Shown here piece after piece: positions 38,274-62,276 of a stretch of 64,000 nucleotides of DNA. A program made the translations under genes and the position numbers. Origin of the DNA: Pseudolabrys sp. FHR47 (GTDB lineage: Bacteria > Pseudomonadota > Alphaproteobacteria > Rhizobiales > Xanthobacteraceae); contig NZ_CP039740.1 of the NCBI RefSeq assembly GCF_005153485.1, positions 1,429,001-1,493,000 of the forward strand. Reading direction: 5' to 3'. Positions within the stretch are counted from its first letter, which is position 1, and each line of letters begins with the position of its first letter. The notes beneath the pieces are model-generated. The model did not search any database. It was not told the DNA's origin and saw only the letters and a program-made list of their open reading frames with translations.

Positions 38274-39158
38274 TCAGCGCCCACGCTTCAGCGTGAGGGT
38301 GGTCCAGCCTTCGAGGTGTTCGGCGTGTTCGAGGACGAGGCCCTGCGCTCCGTAGATCGCGCGCGCGGCATTGGCGTGGCTGGTCAAGAGCCCCGACAGC
38401 ACGACGCGGCCGCCCGGCGCGACCAGCCGCGCGATCGGCACCGCCAGCCGCGTCAGCGGGCCGAGCAGGATATTGGCGAAGACCAGGTCGTAGGGCGCGC
38501 CTTTCTGGATGTCCGGCGCGCGCGTGCCGGGCGCATGGACCGGCGTCACCAGCGGCCCGACACGGTTGAGCCTGGCATTGTCGCGGGCGGCCGCCACGGC
38601 GACGCGGTCGATATCGGTTGCGATCACCCGCGTATGAAACGCCTTGGCTGCCGCGATCGCCAGCACGCCGGTGCCGGTGCCGATATCCAGCACATGAAAG
38701 CGCCGCTCGCGCTTGGCCAAAGCCGCCAGCGCCAGCAGGCAGCCGCGCGTCGTGCCGTGATGGCCGGTGCCAAAGGCCAAAGCCGCCTCGATCTCGATAT
38801 TGAGGTCGTTGCCCTTGAGACGGCCGCGGTCGTGCGAGCCGTGGACGACGAACCGCCCGGCTCTGACAGGCGTCAGCCCGGCCAGACTCTCCGCCACCCA
38901 GTCGCGCGCTTCCACCGTGTCGATGGTCAGCGCATCGGCCGCCGCGGCGCCGGCCGCGTCCGCCACCAGCGCGCGCAGCGCGGTCTCGTCCGGGACATGG
39001 CCGAAATGCAGGGCCACCTGCCAGGAGCCGTCATCGGCCTCGAACGAGCCGCAGACGATATCGTCGCCGTCCAGCAGCTCGTCGAGCGCATCGGCGATGC
39101 GCCGCGCCGAATTCTTGTCGGCGCAGACGAGGCGGGCAACGGTGGTGGAATCGTTCAT
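38274..39158 (-). CDS. prmA: Ribosomal protein L11 methyltransferase PrmA
   Basis: A 294-residue class I methyltransferase that trimethylates ribosomal protein L11. The SAM loop is VLDIGTGTGVLAIAAAK, followed by IATDIDRVAVAAARDNARLN and the substrate-side motif DLVFANILLGPLTRLA (NILxxPL, typical of PrmA). AFGTGHHGTTRGCLLAL precedes the Rossmann fold. ATG 39158 (MNDSTTVARL) is chosen over 39194. It is convergent with the small gene and shares its terminator region. Confidence 0.94.
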   Translation of the reverse strand: MNDSTTVARLVCADKNSARRIADALDELLDGDDIVCGSFEADDGSWQVALHFGHVPDETALRALVADAAGAAAADALTIDTVEARDWVAESLAGLTPVRAGRFVVHGSHDRGRLKGNDLNIEIEAALAFGTGHHGTTRGCLLALAALAKRERRFHVLDIGTGTGVLAIAAAKAFHTRVIATDIDRVAVAAARDNARLNRVGPLVTPVHAPGTRAPDIQKGAPYDLVFANILLGPLTRLAVPIARLVAPGGRVVLSGLLTSHANAARAIYGAQGLVLEHAEHLEGWTTLTLKRGR

Positions 39159-39210
39159 GCGGCCGACATTCGCGCGGCGGCCGGGCCTTGGCAACGGTCT
39201 CTCGTTTTCC

Positions 39211-39294
39211 GTCGTCCTCCGCGAAAGCGGAGGACCCAGCCCTTCGTCCCAACGAACAAGGAAAGAGCTGGATTCCCGCTTTCGCGGGAATGAC
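39211..39294. repeat. Mosaic palindromic repeat between ldt and prmA
   Basis: Hairpins gtcctccgcgaaagcggagg and attcccgctttcgcgggaat flank a short centre containing acccagc and gctggat. It has the same design as the element at 32263-32344. It lies upstream of prmA and downstream of the L,D-transpeptidase gene. Confidence 0.85.
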
Positions 39295-39322
39295 CGGAGG
39301 AGGCCGATGCGCGGCGGCTTAT

Positions 39323-40117
39323 TTACCGCCCGTAATAATAGCGCGGCGGCGGCACATCCTCGTAGCGCGGCCGGTCGTAGTAATAGACCTGCCCCGTGCG
39401 CGTATCGCGATAGCCGATCACGGCGCGGCGCTCGCCGCGGTATTCCCGCGGCGGCGCATAAGCGGGCGGGGCATAGGCCCGCGGCGCGTAAGTCGGTGGC
39501 GCAAAATAACCGCGCGGAATGTCGGCCGGCGGCGCCATGCGCGGCTCGACCGAGGCCGTGACCTCGTCGTCAACAAAACCCTGCTCGAAACTTGCTTCGT
39601 TTTGATTGGCCGCGGCGCGCGCGGGCGCGTTGCGTTTGGCCACCGCAGGCGCGCTGACGCCGGGCGCGTGGCCGGTGAGCACGACGCGCGTCTTGGCCAT
39701 GGTCTCCTGCTTGACGAGGTCGAACAGCAGCGCGGCGTTCTTCGGCTCGAGCCGGACGCAGCCATGCGAGGCCGGGCGGCCGATGCTCTTGTGCGTCGAG
39801 CCGTGGATGGCGTGGCCCTTCATGGTGAAGAAGATGGAGTGCGGCATCGGCGCGTCGTCCCACTCGCGGGAGAAGTGGTCCTTCTCCATGCGGAACGGCT
39901 TGAAGCTGCCGGAGGGCGTGTCGTAGCCGGCGGCGCCCGTGGACACCGGCCAGACGAACAATTGCTCGCCGTCCTTCTCGACCGTCATCTGTTGCGCCGA
40001 CTTGTCGACCGTGATGAGGAGGTCGGCCCGGGCCGCGCCCGCGAAGGCGATCTGCGACGCCGCGAGGGCGATGACGGCACCGGCGGCGGCAAAACGGACA
40101 AATGGACGCATGACCAT
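39323..40117 (-). CDS. L,D-transpeptidase (YkuD family) with Tyr/Pro-rich tail
   Basis: A 264-residue exported enzyme. The signal peptide (MVMRPFVRFAAAGAVIALAA, cut near FAGAARA) is followed by a YkuD domain (residues about 33-145). The catalytic motif is HGSTHKSIGRPASHGCVRLE, with the cysteine as nucleophile. It should form 3-3 cross-links in peptidoglycan or attach proteins to it. The last about 65 residues are unusual: rich in Tyr, Pro and Arg (FAPPTYAPRAYAPPAYAPP, then VYYYDRPRYEDV). AGGAG five bases upstream supports ATG 40117; the open frame to 40483 is not coding. It stands alone on this strand between repeats. Confidence 0.93.
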   Translation of the reverse strand: MVMRPFVRFAAAGAVIALAASQIAFAGAARADLLITVDKSAQQMTVEKDGEQLFVWPVSTGAAGYDTPSGSFKPFRMEKDHFSREWDDAPMPHSIFFTMKGHAIHGSTHKSIGRPASHGCVRLEPKNAALLFDLVKQETMAKTRVVLTGHAPGVSAPAVAKRNAPARAAANQNEASFEQGFVDDEVTASVEPRMAPPADIPRGYFAPPTYAPRAYAPPAYAPPREYRGERRAVIGYRDTRTGQVYYYDRPRYEDVPPPRYYYGR

Positions 40118-40366
40118 GAAAACTCCTGACCTGTGCCGCAAGTTTACCCCGGAGACGGGCGGCAATAAGGCGATTTTCGCGTCATCTGCCGCGCGCGCGT
40201 CGACGGGCGTTTGCGCATCGACTTGGGAGCGAAAAGGGCGCAGGCTCGCTCTTTCCGACGCGCCGGCCCAAAAGCGGCCCGCTCGCCCCTCCACCCCCGA
40301 CGACCGGAGCCCGACCGGGCCTCCGTTGCCCTCGTGCCGATGACACATCGGACGAAAGGAAATCGC

Positions 40367-40726
40367 ATGAATCTTCCTGCAAGCCTGCAAGGCGAATCCC
40401 GCACCCGTTTGCTGCAAGGCGCGGCCGCCGGCATCGTCGCGACATTGGTGATCGGCTTTGCCTGGGGCGGCTGGCAACTGCAAAGCCGGGTGGAGGCGCG
40501 CACCGCCACCGCGGTTCGCGAGGCCCTGGTCGCGGCGCTGACGCCGATTTGCGTGGCGAATTTCAACGGCGCCAGCGACGCGCCGGTGAAACTGGCGGCG
40601 CTGAAAGCAACCGATTCATGGAAGCAGGACGACTTCGTCGCCAAGGGCGGCTGGGCGACATTCCCCGGCAAGGACAAGCCCAACGACGAAGTCGCCTCCG
40701 CCTGCGCGCGGATACTCAATAAATAA
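40367..40726 (+). CDS. Single-pass membrane protein, unknown function
   Basis: A 119-residue protein starting after aaaggaaatcgc. One membrane helix (about 17-37, GAAAGIVATLVIGFAWGGW) is followed by a soluble part with two cysteines (TPICVANF and ASACARIL) and tryptophans (SWKQDDFVAKGGWATFPGKD). Its N-terminus is probably cytoplasmic and the body periplasmic, where the two cysteines could form a disulphide. No known family is recognised. Confidence 0.8.
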   Translation: MNLPASLQGESRTRLLQGAAAGIVATLVIGFAWGGWQLQSRVEARTATAVREALVAALTPICVANFNGASDAPVKLAALKATDSWKQDDFVAKGGWATFPGKDKPNDEVASACARILNK

Positions 40727-40789
40727 CGCGGCGCGCGATTTCGCCGACATCGAATGAGAGCTGCGTCCTCCAACGTCGCTCGCGCGCAC

Positions 40790-40915
40790 TCGTCATGGCC
40801 GGGCTTGTCCCGGCCATCCACGTCTATGACGTGGAAGCAAGGCGTGGAGAAAGAGCGCGCGGCCATCCTTCGAGGCTCGCCGCGCGCGCGGCTCGCAGCT
40901 CGGGATGAGGTCGGC
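40790..40915. repeat. Composite repeat upstream of the CAP gene
   Basis: The left part has gtcatggccgggc with the complementary gcccggccat-like arm and ccacgtctatgacgtgg. The right part (about 40861-40910) holds ggccatccttcgaggctcgc followed by a diverged complementary arm, as in the repeat at 16832-16881. It is thus built from modules also found at 30527 and 16832. Confidence 0.75.
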
Positions 40916-40917
40916 AT

Positions 40918-41316
40918 TCAGTTGCCTAGCACCATCACCCAGTAGCGCCGGCCATTGTCGCCGCGCGCCGAGGCGATGCCGTAGGCCGTGATGCCCTTGA
41001 GCAGCATGTTGCGGCGATGGCCCGCCGAGCGCGACCATTGCCTGATGGCGCAGGGCTGGTCGTCGCAACCGTAAGACACGTTCTCCGCCGCGGTGCCGCT
41101 CACCAGCGCGCCGACTCGCTTTCGGAAGCCGTCGTGATCGAGCCGGCCGCGTCGCGCCAGATCGCGCGCGTGCTCATAGGCCGCGCCGGCGAGTGTCGCC
41201 GAATAGGACAGAGGCGGCAGCTTGTGCTGTGCGCGGAAGGAATTGAGGTCGAGGGCGAAGGAGGGGGAGGCGAGGGCGAGGAGAATGGCTGCTCCGATAG
41301 CCGAACGAAAGCACAT
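40918..41316 (-). CDS. Secreted CAP-domain (SCP-like) protein
   Basis: A 132-residue exported protein. The signal peptide is MCFRSAIGAAILLALASPSF with cleavage near SFA-LD. The CAP fold follows, with LNSFRAQHKLPPLSYSATLAGAAYEHARDLA, a HDGF segment, ENVSYG, and GHRRNMLL near the end. The cavity residues H (LDHDGF), E (AENV) and H (AGHRRN) are present. ATG 41316 has AAGG six bases upstream and is preferred to 41358. Function of bacterial CAP proteins is mostly unknown. It is divergent from the reverse transcriptase gene, only 85 bases away. Confidence 0.9.
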   Translation of the reverse strand: MCFRSAIGAAILLALASPSFALDLNSFRAQHKLPPLSYSATLAGAAYEHARDLARRGRLDHDGFRKRVGALVSGTAAENVSYGCDDQPCAIRQWSRSAGHRRNMLLKGITAYGIASARGDNGRRYWVMVLGN

Positions 41317-41401
41317 ATTATGCCTTCGTTGGAATGAGGGGTTGATGTAGTCTGTCATATTTGAGAAGCTATTATTTTATTACTCATTGCTTGGACGAGC
41401 C

Positions 41402-43117
41402 ATGGCCGATTTGGAGACTGAACTCCTCATCAAGAAAGGACTGTTTCCGGAGAATCTTCCGCCTGTCTACACCGCCGCAAATATATGGCCCATATTAAGT
41501 TCTCAGTCCGAATCTTATTCGATCGTCGCGAAATCTATAGGCGGTTTAAGTGGCTATAATGCGAGCAAACGCGGCGGCCTTAGGCGGATATTCAGCGTTC
41601 CGCATCCAGTGTTCGTAAAGGACCAAGGGTTTTTCTATAGAAAGCACTGGCCCGAAATCGAAGCGATTTTCGCGGGAGCAGTTGGATCGGTGTCTCGCCC
41701 GACTTTCAGCCGCAGTGGTCCTAGGCATGTTCGAATAACATCTCATCGAGAGTTGCCGAAGCTCCGCTTGAAGGCGTTATCTCGTTTCAAATATTGTCTG
41801 ATCACCGATGTGGCGAGGTTTTATCCGTCCGTATATACGCACACCCTGCCTTGGGCGATAAATGGAAAAGCTGCCGCGAAAAATGATACGCATTCGAATT
41901 CAGCGACAATTTTCGGCAATAAGCTAGATTTCATCATCCGCCAAGGACAGTTGAAGCAGACGGTAGGGATTCCGATAGGGCCGGATTCTTCAAAGATCTG
42001 CGCGGAAATATTGATGTCCGCAGTAGACTCTCATTTTTTAAAAGTGAGTGGTCGGAGCCGTCCGACATACGTGCGTCACGTTGATGACTACTGGGTCGGT
42101 GGCGATACGTATGAGGATTGTGAGAAGCACCTTCAGAATTTGAGATTGGCATTAAAAGAGTTCGAGTTGGATATCAATGAGGCCAAGACGCGCATAGTAT
42201 CTACGAAAACCGTATTCGGCGAGTCGTGGCCGTCAGAATTCGAAAGGGACATTCGCGAATCTCTGATGCCGATCGCCAATAAGCTTGATCCCGTCGGCAC
42301 TCTGGGCAGGATTATTGAACGTGCCACACGTGAAAACGATGACGGAATTATTCGTCATGCAATCAGAGTTATAGACGATCTTTATCTCTGGAATGGTCAA
42401 TGGGAGTTACTCGAGCATTTTTTGGCTCAGTGCGCAGTGCAGTTCTCTCACGCATTTGACTATGTTGCGAGAGTTGTCGCCTGGCGTGTTAGAACCAATC
42501 AAAAGGCTGACCTACTTTTATGGGCCGAGATTGCTAAGGCAACGATTAGGCGAAGCGGGTCCATCGGCCACGATTCCGAGGCAGTTTGGGCGCTATGGTT
42601 GTTGAAAGAGCTTAAGCAGAAAATTCCAAAGGCGTTGACGGACATTGTGCTGGCAAACGCTGACAGTTTGGCGCTGGCATTTCTTTCTCATTTTCCACGG
42701 AACGGGCTCGCGAATGATCGTGCGCTCTACGCTAAACTGCGTGATGTCGTGGAGGGTGATCCGTTTTCTGGCCGATATTGGCCGTTGACGTTGGAGCTGA
42801 CTCATCTGTCAGAGGCGAAGCCCGAGTGGGGGGCGTTAAATGCGAACCAATCGTTGAGAAGTCTTCACGACGCGAAGATCTCAATCATTGATTGGGATGC
42901 TTTGCCAAAGGTATTCGAGGAGTCGGCTACGAGCCAGGTCGATGGAAATGGGCCTCGGTACGCTATTGAAGACTATGGGGCTGACTATTCTGAAGAGGAC
43001 AAAGACGACGGCGAAGACGAAGGTGATGAGGAGCAGGACGCGGACTGGCTAAAGCTGTTGTTAAAAGGGTTGCCTGAAAATCCGTTCCCCACCGCGAAAC
43101 GCAATTCTGAACAATAA
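41402..43117 (+). CDS. Abi/UG-like (DRT-type) reverse transcriptase
   Basis: A 571-residue RNA-directed DNA polymerase resembling phage-defence reverse transcriptases rather than group II intron or retron enzymes. The N-terminal part has IKKGLFPENLPP and LRRIFSVPHPVFVKDQGFFY (RT1/2 region). Motif A is LITDVARFYPSVYTHTLPWA (D136), motif B is QTVGIPIGPDSSKICAEIL (about 186-204), and catalytic motif C is YVRHVDDYWV (D228, D229). The roughly 300-residue C-terminal half is helical with no known enzyme fold, like the helical-repeat tails of the Abi/UG groups, and ends in an acidic run (EEDKDDGEDEGDEEQD). ATG 41402 with GGACGAG upstream is chosen; TTG 41387 is the frame limit. Composition is clearly lower in GC than neighbours. 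No second RT, maturase, nitrilase or integrase adjoins it. Confidence 0.9.
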   Translation: MADLETELLIKKGLFPENLPPVYTAANIWPILSSQSESYSIVAKSIGGLSGYNASKRGGLRRIFSVPHPVFVKDQGFFYRKHWPEIEAIFAGAVGSVSRPTFSRSGPRHVRITSHRELPKLRLKALSRFKYCLITDVARFYPSVYTHTLPWAINGKAAAKNDTHSNSATIFGNKLDFIIRQGQLKQTVGIPIGPDSSKICAEILMSAVDSHFLKVSGRSRPTYVRHVDDYWVGGDTYEDCEKHLQNLRLALKEFELDINEAKTRIVSTKTVFGESWPSEFERDIRESLMPIANKLDPVGTLGRIIERATRENDDGIIRHAIRVIDDLYLWNGQWELLEHFLAQCAVQFSHAFDYVARVVAWRVRTNQKADLLLWAEIAKATIRRSGSIGHDSEAVWALWLLKELKQKIPKALTDIVLANADSLALAFLSHFPRNGLANDRALYAKLRDVVEGDPFSGRYWPLTLELTHLSEAKPEWGALNANQSLRSLHDAKISIIDWDALPKVFEESATSQVDGNGPRYAIEDYGADYSEEDKDDGEDEGDEEQDADWLKLLLKGLPENPFPTAKRNSEQ

Positions 43118-43192
43118 AACCGCTGGCCTTCGCACGGTGCTTGCGCCAGTCTTCCCGCGCGCGCTCATCAAGAAGCGCCGAGGGAGTGACAC

Positions 43193-43699
43193 ATGAAAAG
43201 CCCGACATCGAAGGCCGGCATGGCAGTGGCTGCGCTGGCCGTCTGGATGCTGAGCGCAGGAGTGGCCATGGCGGATGCAGCCCCGAAGGAACTGATCGGT
43301 TCGTGGAAGCTGACCAAATGGGTGCTGCAGGTGGTCGGCTCAACCGAGACCAAGCCGCCTTATGGCGACAACCCGAAGGGCCGGCTCATCGTCACGCCGC
43401 AGGGCGATTTCATGGTCATCATTTCCGGCGCGGGCCGCAAGCCGGCGACGACCGTCGAAGAGAAGGCGGCGCTGCTCGACACCGTGCTGGCCTATGCCGG
43501 CAAGTCCACCTTCGAGGGCAACAAGATCGTCACCACGGTGGACATGTCGGCGAACGAGGTGTTCTCCGGCGAGCGCGCCAGGCAGGTGCGCTTCTACGAG
43601 GTGACGGGCGACAAGCTTGTCATCAGGACGCCGGAGATTTCATCCGCCGTGCTGCCGGGCAAGAAGACCGTCGGCATTCTGGAGTGGGTGAGGGAGTAG
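43193..43699 (+). CDS. Exported lipocalin-like domain protein
   Basis: A 168-residue protein. The signal peptide is followed by a likely cut at AMA-DA (VWMLSAGVAMADAAP). The mature part begins ELIGSWKLTKWVLQVVGSTE and contains PPYGDNPKGRLIVTPQGDFM and EVTGDKLVIRTPEIS. This is the pattern of the lipocalin-like family (Lipocalin_5), a beta-barrel of unknown ligand. GGGAG precedes the start. It lies between the reverse transcriptase and the hicA-hicB pair, but its GC-rich codon use matches the host, so it is probably a resident gene. Confidence 0.82.
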   Translation: MKSPTSKAGMAVAALAVWMLSAGVAMADAAPKELIGSWKLTKWVLQVVGSTETKPPYGDNPKGRLIVTPQGDFMVIISGAGRKPATTVEEKAALLDTVLAYAGKSTFEGNKIVTTVDMSANEVFSGERARQVRFYEVTGDKLVIRTPEISSAVLPGKKTVGILEWVRE

Positions 43700-43702
43700 C
43701 GC

Positions 43703-43987
43703 TCACTCTGCGGCTTCGGCCTTCACGCGAAATGGCACGGCGGCGACGACGGCGTCCGCGGCATCGGCTTGAAACTCCGGATCGGCCCGAAGCTCGTCGA
43801 TAGTGCGGGGCGCAGGAAATCGGTTGTCGCCGTCCCAATCCTCGGCGGCAAATTCCAGCACTTCGCGGGCCATGCTCATAGCCTCGTCGATTGTATCGCC
43901 TCCGGTAATCACACCGGGAATGTCGGGAAACGACACGCCGTAGGAGCTATCCGCTTCCTTGTGAATAAGAGCGATGTAGTGCGGCAT
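43703..43987 (-). CDS. hicB: HicB-family antitoxin
   Basis: A 94-residue antitoxin. The N-terminal HicB fold is MPHYIALIHKEADSSYGVSF followed by PDIPGVITGGDTIDEAMSMA, which binds and blocks HicA. The C-terminus (ELRADPEFQADAADAVVAAV) is longer than the minimal fold and may make the dimer; no clear ribbon-helix-helix is visible. It starts three bases after the hicA stop, in the toxin-first order usual for hicAB. Its end is three bases from the convergent lipocalin-like gene. Confidence 0.92.
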   Translation of the reverse strand: MPHYIALIHKEADSSYGVSFPDIPGVITGGDTIDEAMSMAREVLEFAAEDWDGDNRFPAPRTIDELRADPEFQADAADAVVAAVPFRVKAEAAE

Positions 43988-43990
43988 CGA

Positions 43991-44185
43991 TTAGTCCTTC
44001 GGCCAGTTGGCCATCTTGTAGATGCTTCGTACGGTCCCAACAGGAATGTCCCGTTTCGGGTGCGCCACAATGACCATAAGACGCTTTGCTTTGTGAACGA
44101 ACTTGTGGTGCGAACCGCGCACCGACACCTGCTCGAACCCCTCGTTTAGCAACCGGCGGATGATATCACGGCTGTCCCGAAGCAT
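43991..44185 (-). CDS. hicA: HicA-family toxin (mRNA interferase)
   Basis: A 64-residue double-stranded-RNA-binding-fold toxin. The conserved catalytic histidine lies in VSVRGSHHKFVHK, preceded by RRLLNEGFEQ and followed by IVAHPKRDIPVGTVRSIYK, as in YcfA/HicA proteins. The family cleaves mRNA to stop translation. It is first in the two-gene operon. It is a complete pair, so likely functional. Confidence 0.93.
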   Translation of the reverse strand: MLRDSRDIIRRLLNEGFEQVSVRGSHHKFVHKAKRLMVIVAHPKRDIPVGTVRSIYKMANWPKD

Positions 44186-44345
44186 AATAACCCCTCCAAG
44201 AAGTGTAAGGCTTCGGGGAGTTTCGGTCTAGCGCAGGGCTGTTAAGCGCGGGGGGTGTTTGACGGGCCGCGTTATTCGGCAAAATGGGGCTTCTGTGGTG
44301 CCACGCGCTTAATTTTGTACGTACTTTTGATTCGCTTCGTTCGAA

Positions 44346-44557
44346 TCACACCCTCTCCACAAAACTATCCACCACGCGCTTCTCACCCGCCTTGTCGAAC
44401 ACGATGGTCAGCTTGTTGCCGTCCACGGCGGTGACATTGCCGTTGCCGAACTTGAGATGAAACACGCGGTCGCCGGGGCGGAAGCTGGAAGCGGGGCCGG
44501 ATGACTTGGCGATCAGCTCGCCTTCGATGGTGAGGGGCGCGCGGGGCTTGGGCTTAC
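44346..44557 (-). other. Out-of-frame C-terminal domain of uvrD/pcrA
   Basis: On the minus strand, in the frame two bases shifted from the uvrD reading frame, this encodes KPKPRAPLTIEGELIAKSSG, then FRPGDRVFHLKFGNGNVTAV, DGNKLTIVFDKAGEKRVVDS and FVERV, ending in TGA at 44346-44348. This is the Tudor-like C-terminal module normally fused to PcrA/UvrD, which contacts RNA polymerase. The frame change occurs at the palindromic tract 44558-44596. No start codon with a ribosome site serves it separately, so it is probably not made unless frameshifting occurs. Confidence 0.85.
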
Positions 44558-47014
44558 CCCTCTCCCTGTCCCTCCCCCCAAGGGGGGAGGGGACGATGTG
44601 GCGCCGCCCGCGCGACCTCCGAAGGGTGAGCTAGCGTCGTCGCCGTAATCCTCATCCTGGTTGAACACGCCGTCCGGCACATAGCGTGGCTGGCCGTTCT
44701 CATTGAAGCCGCCGGCACCGCGCCGGCCTTGCGCGCGCTGCCAGCCGGGCGTCGAATATTTCGAGCCGAACGCGGCCACCTCGTCGAAGCGCGACGGGCC
44801 ATAGCCCGACATGCCGAAGCCGCCGGTGCCGCCGGCCGCTTCCTTCACCTCGACATGCTCGGCCGGCAACTCGTCGAGAAAGCGCGACGGGATGTTGCTC
44901 TGCCACAGGCCGTGCACACGGCGATTGGTGGCGAAATAGATTTTGGCGCGCTTGCGCGCGCGCGTGAGGCCGACATGGGCGAGGCGGCGCTCTTCCTCCA
45001 GGCCCGCCTTGCCCTGTTCGTCGAGCGAGCGTTGATGCGGAAACAGGCCTTCCTCCCAGCCGGGCAGGAACACGGTGTCGAACTCGAGGCCCTTGGCCGA
45101 ATGCAGGGTCATGATGCTGACCTTCTGCTCCGAGTCGCCCTCGGCCGTGTCCATCACCAGCGAGATGTGCTCGAGGAAACCGGCGAGGTTCTCGAACTCC
45201 TCCATCGAGCGCACCAGTTCCTTGAGGTTCTCGAGGCGGCCGGCGGCGTCGGCGGAGCGGTCCTTCTGCCACATCTCGGTGTAGCCGCTCTCATCGAGCA
45301 CGATTTCGGCGAGTTCGGTGTGCGGCAGCGTATCTCGCTGTTTTCTCCAACGCGCGAAATTCTCCATTAACGCGCGCAATGAATTGCGCGCTTTGGGCTT
45401 CATCTCGTCGGTGGACGACATGATGGCGGCCGCTTCGGTCAGCGGTATGCGCTGCTTGCGGGCATAGTCATGCAGCATCTGCACGGCGGCATCGCCCAGG
45501 CCGCGCTTCGGCGTGTTGACGATGCGCTCGAAGGCGAGATCGTCGGCCGGCTGGGCGATGACGCGCAGGTAAGCCAGCGCGTCGCGAATTTCGGCGCGCT
45601 CGTAGAAGCGCGGCCCGCCGATGACGCGATAGGGCAGGCCGAGCTGGATGAAGCGCTCTTCGAACTCGCGCATCTGGAACGAGGCGCGCACCAGAATGGC
45701 GATCTCGTCGAGCGGATGATCCTGCCCTTCGTCGCGGGCGGCGCGCTGCATCTGCTCGATCTCTTCGCCGATGGCGCGGGCTTCTTCTTCCGAGTCCCAG
45801 GCGCCGGTGACTTCAACCTTCTCGCCGTCGACATCCTCGGTGTGCAGGGTCTTGCCGAGGCGGCCTTCGTTATGCGCGATGAGCGTCGAGGCGGCGGCGA
45901 GGATGTGGCCGGTGCTGCGATAGTTTCTTTCCAAGCGAATGACTTTCGCGCCGGGGAAGTCGTGATCGAAGCGCAGGATGTTGTCGACCTCGGCGCCGCG
46001 CCAGCCATAGATCGACTGGTCGTCGTCGCCGACGCAGCAGATGTTTTTGCGGTCCGTCATTCCGGGGGCCGCCGCAGGCGGCAACCCGGAATCCAGCTCT
46101 TTAGGTTCATCCCATGTGGCTTCGAGGTTCACCCCTTCGCTCGGCGGTAAAGCGCTGGATTCCGGGTTCGCGCCTTCGGCGCGCCCCGGAATGACGGAGG
46201 TGGACGGCATCTGCGCCAAGAGCCGCAGCCACAGATATTGCGCGACGTTCGTGTCCTGATATTCGTCGACGAGAATAAAGCGGAAGCGCTGCTGATACTG
46301 CTTCAGGATGTCCGGGTGCTCGCGGAACAGGCGGATGCATTCCAGCAGCAGGTCGCCGAAGTCGGCGGCGTTGAGCGTCTTCAGCCGCTCCTGATAGGCG
46401 GCGTAGAGCTTCTTGCCCTTGCCATTGGCGAAGCTCGCCGCTTCGCCGCCCGGCACCTGGTCGGGCGTCAAGCCGCGATTCTTCCAGCCATCGACGATCA
46501 TGGCGAAGACGCGCGCCGGCCAGCGCTTCTCGTCCAGCTTCTCGGCTTCGATCAGTTGCTTGATCAGGCGGATCTGGTCGTCGACGCCGAGAATGGTGAA
46601 GTCGCTCTTCAGGCCGATCGCCTCGGCGTGGCGGCGCAGAATCTTGACGCCGATGGCGTGGAAGGTGCCGAGCCAGGGCATGCCCTCGACGATCTCGCCG
46701 ACCATGTGGCCGACGCGTTCCTTCATCTCGCGCGCCGCCTTGTTGGTGAAGGTGACGGCGAGGATCTGGCTCGGATGGGCGCGGCCAAGGTTCAATATGT
46801 GCGCGATGCGCGTGGTCAAAACCCGCGTCTTGCCCGTACCCGCGCCGGCCAGCACCAGGACTGGACCGTCGAGCGTCTCCACCGCCTCGCGCTGCTCGGG
46901 ATTGAGCGCGGCAAGGTAGGGCGCCTCACGTTTGGCTTGCGCACGCGCGGCAATGCCGCCGGCGGCGGGGCGCGCCGGGGCGGGCGCGGGTTCGAAGCGT
47001 TTGGGGTCGGCCAT
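44513..47014 (-). CDS. uvrD: ATP-dependent DNA helicase UvrD/PcrA (altered by repeats)
   Basis: An 833-residue superfamily 1A helicase acting in repair and replication. Walker A is AGAGTGKT (residues 56-63). Motif II is DEYQDTN near 250, motif III is GDDDQSIYGWRG near 325, motif IV begins FERNYRST-like RLERNYRSTGHIL, and motifs V and VI are VSIMTLHSAKGLEFD and RLAHVGLTRARKRAKIY. Two oddities are seen. About 47 residues (near 273-319, VIPGRAEGANPESSALPPSE onward) encoded by a palindromic repeat separate motif II from motif III, where homologues have none. The frame also shifts at a second repeat near the end, so it terminates with PSPARPSPSKAS instead of the usual C-terminal module. The helicase core is otherwise intact. 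Confidence 0.93.
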   Translation of the reverse strand: MADPKRFEPAPAPARPAAGGIAARAQAKREAPYLAALNPEQREAVETLDGPVLVLAGAGTGKTRVLTTRIAHILNLGRAHPSQILAVTFTNKAAREMKERVGHMVGEIVEGMPWLGTFHAIGVKILRRHAEAIGLKSDFTILGVDDQIRLIKQLIEAEKLDEKRWPARVFAMIVDGWKNRGLTPDQVPGGEAASFANGKGKKLYAAYQERLKTLNAADFGDLLLECIRLFREHPDILKQYQQRFRFILVDEYQDTNVAQYLWLRLLAQMPSTSVIPGRAEGANPESSALPPSEGVNLEATWDEPKELDSGLPPAAAPGMTDRKNICCVGDDDQSIYGWRGAEVDNILRFDHDFPGAKVIRLERNYRSTGHILAAASTLIAHNEGRLGKTLHTEDVDGEKVEVTGAWDSEEEARAIGEEIEQMQRAARDEGQDHPLDEIAILVRASFQMREFEERFIQLGLPYRVIGGPRFYERAEIRDALAYLRVIAQPADDLAFERIVNTPKRGLGDAAVQMLHDYARKQRIPLTEAAAIMSSTDEMKPKARNSLRALMENFARWRKQRDTLPHTELAEIVLDESGYTEMWQKDRSADAAGRLENLKELVRSMEEFENLAGFLEHISLVMDTAEGDSEQKVSIMTLHSAKGLEFDTVFLPGWEEGLFPHQRSLDEQGKAGLEEERRLAHVGLTRARKRAKIYFATNRRVHGLWQSNIPSRFLDELPAEHVEVKEAAGGTGGFGMSGYGPSRFDEVAAFGSKYSTPGWQRAQGRRGAGGFNENGQPRYVPDGVFNQDEDYGDDASSPFGGRAGGATSSPPPLGGGTGRGVSPSPARPSPSKAS
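44558..44596. repeat. Palindromic G/C-tract element inside uvrD
   Basis: cccctctccctgtccctccc is followed by a complementary cccaaggggggaggggac segment. It resembles the intergenic hairpin at 34558-34586. Its presence within the coding region explains the shift in frame between the helicase body and its C-terminal module. Confidence 0.75.
46056..46196. repeat. Mosaic palindromic repeat inserted in frame in uvrD
   Basis: The outer arms gtcattccggg and ccccggaatgac, and inner pairs cccggaatccagc and gctggattccggg, form two hairpins. About 141 bases make 47 codons without a stop in the uvrD frame. The half-element gtcattccgggttcgc-type hairpin also occurs alone at 54696-54732, proving it is interspersed. 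Confidence 0.85.
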
Positions 47015-61664: not shown

Positions 61665-62010
61665 GAAAGTGGAGGCTTCTGTTGCCAGGTGCCTCCGAAC
61701 CCCGCCTAACGGAGCTTATCCCGTTAGGACTTGTAGGCTTGGTTTTTCAGGACCGCTTAGGCGGCCTGAGCAACCGGAGCATAGTTGTCGTTGGCAACTA
61801 TGAGATTGGCCCGATAACGGCGGAACCGTGCCGAGCGAAAGATCGCCTTTTACGCCCTCGTCGATCCTAGTTCGCCCCCGCCGGTGTCGCCCACAAGGTC
61901 CGTCCTTTCGGGTAGGACCGGCCCCGCCTCAACGAACGGGTGCCTGGTATGGCGAGCGACACGGGTGGAGGCGCCGGGTACTGCCCCCGGGTCCGAAAGG
62001 TTTATTGTGA
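61665..62010 (-). ncRNA. ssrA: Two-piece (circularly permuted) tmRNA
   Basis: Read on the minus strand, an acceptor piece comes first (about 62010-61948), with the T-arm like CCCGGGGGCAGTACCCGG and 3' end CGCCTCCACC. After an intervening stretch, the coding piece begins GGGGGCGAACTAGGATCGAC near 61883, whose first seven bases can pair with CGCCTCC of the acceptor piece. The tag frame at 61795-61757 is GCC AAC GAC AAC TAT through GCC TAA, giving ANDNYAPVAQAA. A stem (cctaacgg with ccgttagg) and a final hairpin at 61664-61697 follow. tmRNA rescues stalled ribosomes and tags products for ClpXP. Ends are estimated. Confidence 0.95.
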
Positions 62011-62276
62011 CGTCCGTTTATCGCCATAGACCGGGTTGCCCCGGCACTTGCCAATATAAGGCGGTTTGGCGCCGAGGGTAAGGGTCAACCCGTCCCTCCG
62101 CCGGTAAATGGCGGGAAACCGCGCCGGAAAGGGGCACAGACCGCCGAAATTTCGCTTTTTCCGCGATCCGGCTAACCCTCCGTCAACCACGGAACGGGGA
62201 ACCAGCGGTAAATGCTATCGGCGCAAATGTACATTAACGTTCAACCCGGAGGGTGGCCGGCGACAGAAAGGCCGCC

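Follow-up and report, generated by a model that had tools for sequence, protein, structure and literature searches.

The window analysed here, a 64,000-nucleotide stretch of Pseudolabrys sp. FHR47 (contig NZ_CP039740.1, positions 1,429,001 to 1,493,000), carries a solitary reverse transcriptase (RT) gene that probably serves in antiphage defence as a DRT6 (UG12-type, class 1) gene acquired by horizontal transfer. This assignment has several grounds: the protein matches the family profile, keeps its catalytic motifs and is predicted to share the fold; the gene has a foreign base composition, occurs patchily among relatives and lies in a defence hotspot; and no partner was found. The initial annotation had proposed a one-gene antiphage system of the Abi/UG/DRT type, and one-gene phage defence is likely. 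The gene comprises the following features, with conservation counted in 90 family rows unless another alignment is named:

41402..43117 (+): probable DRT6 (UG12-type) reverse-transcriptase-like DNA polymerase gene, 571 amino acids
41807..41830 (+): RT motif A DVARFYPS, residues 136-143; D136 in 90/90 rows, followed after the motif by Y145, invariant in alignment A1
41966..41992 (+): RT motif B GIPIGPDSS, residues 189-197; G189 in 90/90 and G193 in 88/90 rows
42080..42094 (+): RT motif C VDDYW, residues 227-231, with catalytic D228/D229; D228 in 90/90 and D229 in 89/90 rows
42233..42925 (+): predicted helical-repeat (alphaRep-like) domain, about residues 278-508, from secondary structure and predicted local distance difference test (pLDDT) scores of model mb46f4151eb1f
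42953..42988 (+): conserved tail motif PRYAIEDYGADY, residues 518-529, from conservation in alignment A1, with Tyr529 as candidate primer
42989..43042 (+): acidic run, residues 530-547, predicted disordered (pLDDT <50 for 529-547)

Family membership and catalytic core

The open reading frame (ORF) begins with ATG, runs for 571 codons and has a single stop, the terminal one (sequence check); an in-frame TTG lies upstream of the ATG at 41387. Motifs A, B and C are present as first read, and the catalytic aspartates D136, D228 and D229 are intact and near-invariant across the family alignment.

Against the PADLOC Drt6 profile the window protein scored 457.6 bits (residues 6-532 aligned to profile positions 4-504 of 511), a lead of 147 bits over the next-best score of 310. 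The best fold match of the predicted model was the solved, hexameric DRT6 (PDB 9wy8; 490 residues superposed, 24-26% identity), which was ahead of DRT4 by 8 Z units and whose RT-like and helical domains are both reproduced in the model. The full-length profile match and the shared fold agree with the Abi/UG/DRT-type RT proposed initially, and led us to reject the unassigned UG subgroup also raised then as a possibility. The protein is neither a group II intron nor a retron RT, scoring 34.7 bits to the NCBIfam group II intron RT/maturase profile (cut-off 300) and 28.1 bits to the retron St85-type profile (cut-off 235). Membership in DRT4 (UG15) instead of DRT6 is very unlikely, given that the NCBIfam Drt4 score of 170.3 bits lies under the curated cut-off of 450 and that Drt6 leads in both profile and fold comparisons.

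The homologue search scored 7993 candidates, of which 452 passed the threshold and 120 of these were listed, while 333 relatives were confirmed on genome contigs and 80 kept as loci. A quick, midpoint-rooted IQ-TREE phylogeny combined 24 homologues from the list of 120 with 66 of the 80 locus proteins (480-670 amino acids, no X; 90 rows, 89 of them different), with UG15 references and other UG outgroups not among the rows. The window protein is one of the 39 rows of clade A (SH-aLRT 100), whose hosts, where named, are alphaproteobacteria, the class being judged by genus name. Clade B (51 rows) spans many phyla, with a few alphaproteobacteria, and includes L098, which is equated with the solved DRT6 by its tail.

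Foreign islet and the CAP-uvrD gap

The RT gene has a G+C content (GC) of 0.497 and a third-position value (GC3) of 0.535, compared to 0.61-0.71 and 0.67-0.88 in nine neighbouring genes, and nowhere else in the window does GC over 1.7 kb fall as low as it does across this gene. The low-GC islet described initially is thus upheld, down to the line counted at 27 G/C of 60 (41461-41520), as is the gene's location between a CAP gene (PF00188, 9.7e-19) and a lipocalin-like gene (PF13924, 4.7e-16). The islet and its surroundings are as follows:

41275..43083: foreign islet, ~1.8 kb, left edge within the signal-peptide codons of the CAP gene
43083..43117 (+): last ~11 codons and stop of the RT gene, presumed host flank (homology to genomes G040 and G045)
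40918..41358 (-): CAP-domain gene, left hotspot anchor (PF00188; matched in 43/43 genus genomes, counting second CAP genes)
44513..47014 (-): uvrD/pcrA-type helicase gene, right hotspot anchor, named by eye from sequence

On the left, the last homologous position is 41274 for G040 and 41275 for G009; on the right, homology to the RT-less G040 and G045 restarts at 43082/43084, in the last codons of the RT gene (alignment A3). Because homology ends and resumes at these edges, we infer that recombination swapped a 1.8-kb block and that the RT gene now stops in host DNA. The RT is not ubiquitous in close relatives, and neither of the refuting outcomes named initially (a group II intron or retron RT; ubiquity) was thus seen: within the genus it occurs in 1 of 43 genomes, its own, and within the order 6 of 297 genomes had a match at 1e-20, its own included, the next best at 37% identity. 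No repeat pair with one copy at each islet edge was found in 40900-43800, and no integrase is among the named genes of 40918-44185, where no integrase-directed profile search was made. Matches in 210 plasmid and 7 phage records were all below 60% identity; at least 80% of the query was covered in one of the 210 plasmid records (23.8% identity) and in none of the 7 phage records.

This rarity, together with the match of the last ~11 codons to host flank, would also fit a decaying passenger whose native C-terminus was removed by the right islet edge and whose function is lost. Such decay is unlikely: the catalytic motifs, tail motif and acidic run are kept, there is no internal stop, and homologues vary widely in tail length past the tyrosine.

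The favoured reading, an acquired DRT6 defence gene, is supported by the surroundings of the islet. Judged from gene content, the CAP-uvrD gap (40918-44513; L054, L055, L148, L149, L152, L154, L161) is a defence hotspot in the genus. Of the 42 genus genomes besides its own, 29 were surveyed, and 20 of these showed both flanks and 9 did not (21 gaps including the window genome); the remaining 13 lay outside the survey, which did not use L058 (G046) either. PADLOC, run on 20 cargo ORFs that are a subset of the gap ORFs, recognised cargo in 8 of the 21 gaps, the window gene counted; PDC labels denote candidate systems. Cargo comprised a PifA-like KAP NTPase (G040; PADLOC, 3.7e-67), PDC-S73 beside a broken CAP gene (G045; PADLOC, 6.5e-142), PDC-S28 (G012; PADLOC, E 0), Vsr with an m5C methylase and an Eco29kI-type nuclease (G055), an m5C methylase with HATPase (G005), and a CBASS cyclase (1.5e-173) with a patatin (7e-116; G016). 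A retron XI RT-protease fusion with a trypsin domain (G013, L148:7257-8852; 1.5e-170) is a second RT type in the hotspot. Weaker cargo was a HEPN gene (G041), an ORC/CDC6-like ATPase (G056), a UvrD_C piece (G018) and a RelE-like gene (G043), and the G054 gap held a low-GC gene without any match in the cargo scans. Among the other 8 gaps (e.g., G009), whose cargo lay outside the scans, low-GC ORFs were in most cases absent or short. The gap is a place to seek more defence genes in this genus. A pair comprising a HicB-like antitoxin (PF15919) and a HicA toxin (PF07927, 2.2e-16) adjoins the islet at 43703-44185 (-); HicB was seen in the stretches retrieved for G009 and G045 and not in the one for G040.

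As the initial annotation had stated, no partner was evident: no neighbouring ORF family of at least 80 amino acids recurred in more than 3 of 16 loci, and no Rfam match to a noncoding RNA (ncRNA) was obtained up to E 1 in 39000-46000, in a scan confined to described RNAs. A class-2 DRT templated by an ncRNA, like DRT2 or DRT9, would likewise present as a single RT gene without a protein partner (these two are described as one RT plus an ncRNA in the excerpted PMC13213688), and is extremely improbable here. Separately, two clade-A DRT6 loci (L066:3008-5912 and L086:2696-5835) adjoin a common gene pair that is SIR2-HerA-like by eye. The only gene found by ARAGORN in the window is a transfer-messenger RNA gene (61666-62058, -; tag ANDNYAPVAQAA), ~18 kb from the islet.

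The C-terminal tail and chain initiation

Beyond the RT core lie ~294 residues, of which ~230 (278-508) are predicted to be helical and the last ~60 mostly disordered. The helical C-terminus of roughly 300 residues in the initial annotation was accordingly right in length and holds for 278-508, not for the tail, and the protein does not end in its acidic run, which ~24 residues follow. A variable acidic linker after the helical domain leads into a PxxAIEDYxSDY island and then the acidic run. Model residues to ~500 superpose on the DRT6, DRT4 and AbiK structures; because the solved DRT6 chain stops at residue 495, its tail is unseen.

Alignment A1 holds the window protein and 99 homologues (100 of the 120 listed rows, leaving out 18 short proteins of 378-507 amino acids, the near-duplicate P0035, and P0017, a 611-residue protein that carries the tail motif); alignment A2 has 69 rows. 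In A1, A521 and Y529 are present in 100/100 rows, E523 in 99/100 and P518 in 98/100, and of the 17 tyrosines in the window protein two are invariant, Y529 and Y145, which adjoins motif A. The motif is found in 38 of the 39 clade-A rows. Omitting L080, which lacks it, the 20 residues after the tyrosine average 56% aspartate plus glutamate (D/E) in 38 clade-A rows, versus 12% in residues 1-480. In both structure models, confidence falls under 50 exactly at Tyr529.

For model 1, 8 of 50 superposition ranges (VIA) ended at model residues 525-533, and for model 2 the count was 9 of 50; the residues matched there presumably are thumb positions in several polymerases. With DRT9 (9vma), the last aligned residue in one run was 495, just before its Tyr496; a repeat differed, with the 9vma range ending at model residue 273 and that of DRT9 9nlv at model residue 529 but chain residue 398. 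As ranges are not distances, these results are no more than a hint about tail geometry.

By analogy with class-1 relatives, the subunits would assemble into trimers or a hexamer, the RT-like domain would add deoxynucleoside triphosphates without a nucleic-acid template, starting at the hydroxyl of a tyrosine in the same chain, and the helical domain would take the place of template and thumb. Phage infection would turn this synthesis into toxic or factor-sequestering single-stranded DNA (ssDNA), and the infected cell would halt ahead of phage release. The most likely primer, though among the least certain steps, would be Tyr529, held by the docked PxxAIEDYxSDY motif; as uncertain is the role of the acidic run, which, before synthesis begins, would hold the unused tail away from DNA or within the basic product channel. 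A bolder and less probable reading is that the alphaproteobacterial clade may be a distinct DRT6 variant that combines priming and autoinhibition in one tail, with the chain started on Tyr529, AIED docking the tail at the RT cleft (the thumb site), and the acidic run a built-in nucleic-acid mimic that plugs the product channel until displaced by growing DNA. Conservation of the tyrosine across the clade offers a one-residue test of DNA initiation. Searches of the open-licence literature with narrow terms returned no paper on the CAP-uvrD hotspot, DRT acidic tails or C-terminal priming.

It is possible, if doubtful, that the same DRT6 enzyme instead starts DNA on Tyr39 of the fingers loop, in the manner of AbiK. 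The tail would then act only as an autoinhibitory plug or an acidic mimic of DNA, and Tyr529 would be an anchoring residue. The priming residue is Tyr44 in AbiK and Tyr61 in Abi-P2, each in the loop between fingers helices 2 and 3 (PMC9508834). Tyr39 lies between helix 29-35 and strand 50-55 of the model and is tyrosine in 95/100 A1 rows and 28/28 inner-clade rows, its match to AbiK Tyr44 being presumed and not residue by residue. However, 5/100 A1 rows have F, T or V in its place and it is tyrosine in only 29/90 family-wide rows, while Y529 does not vary in A1; because F, which cannot prime, replaces it in some rows, Tyr39 priming is disfavoured.

Several observations weigh against an acquired, Tyr529-primed DRT6. 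Identity to the solved DRT6 is only 24-26%, and L098, its counterpart in the tree, sits in clade B and not with the window protein. The solved DRT6 sequence, equated with L098 from its tail, scores 762 to a PADLOC Drt4-named model versus 613 to Drt6, and among 10 relatives scanned the best PADLOC model was Drt6 in 6 and a Drt4 model in 4, so the border between the two labels is blurred. The tail motif is missing from 50 of 51 clade-B rows, the remaining one being a weak pattern match, and Tyr529 priming would therefore be clade-specific. Acidic ends also occur in clade B, where the last 20 residues average 25% D/E and reach at least 40% in 12/51 rows, L098 included. In addition, the loop holding Y39 is perhaps comparable to the AbiK/Abi-P2 priming loop, and the native 3' end of the RT gene was, judging from the homology boundaries, probably lost at the islet edge.

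In clade B, an SFYD-type tyrosine occurs at the start of the tail in 46/51 rows (L079-L143), and 14/51 rows terminate exactly in Tyr; both may be alternative priming sites. The SFYD tyrosine was rejected as primer of the window protein, which has Ile at the equivalent position.

Comparison with known systems

Excerpts of published work provide the functional background. According to reviews, the random ssDNA made by DRT4 is protected by phage ORF55, which activates DRT6 as well (PMC13213688, PMC13314766); the DRT6 structure is solved, but its product is "not yet fully characterized" (PMC13314766). In DRT9, priming by a tail tyrosine is probable (PMC12483538). Drt3b (UG8) is a class-1 RT like the window protein, and its C-terminal tail tyrosine Y666 primes DNA; the Y666F change abolishes both the DNA adduct and defence (PMC13174585). 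Unlike the window gene, Drt3b acts with Drt3a and an ncRNA, neither of which was found at the window locus, and its profile matches only the RT core (127-274). AbiK and Abi-P2 differ in their fingers-loop priming (PMC9508834, in excerpt), in identity (16%) and in profiles that match only about residues 120-267. DRT4/UG15 (9vdo, 9vdv, 9l9s) is also unlike the window protein, at 19% identity and at most 310 bits compared to 457.6 for Drt6. The closest likeness is to DRT6/UG12 (9wy8), which shares the best family score, the best fold match, the single-gene organization and an acidic C-terminal tail; however, it carries DEEYFDS before its acidic run where the window protein has PxxAIEDYxSDY, and it belongs to the opposite tree clade.
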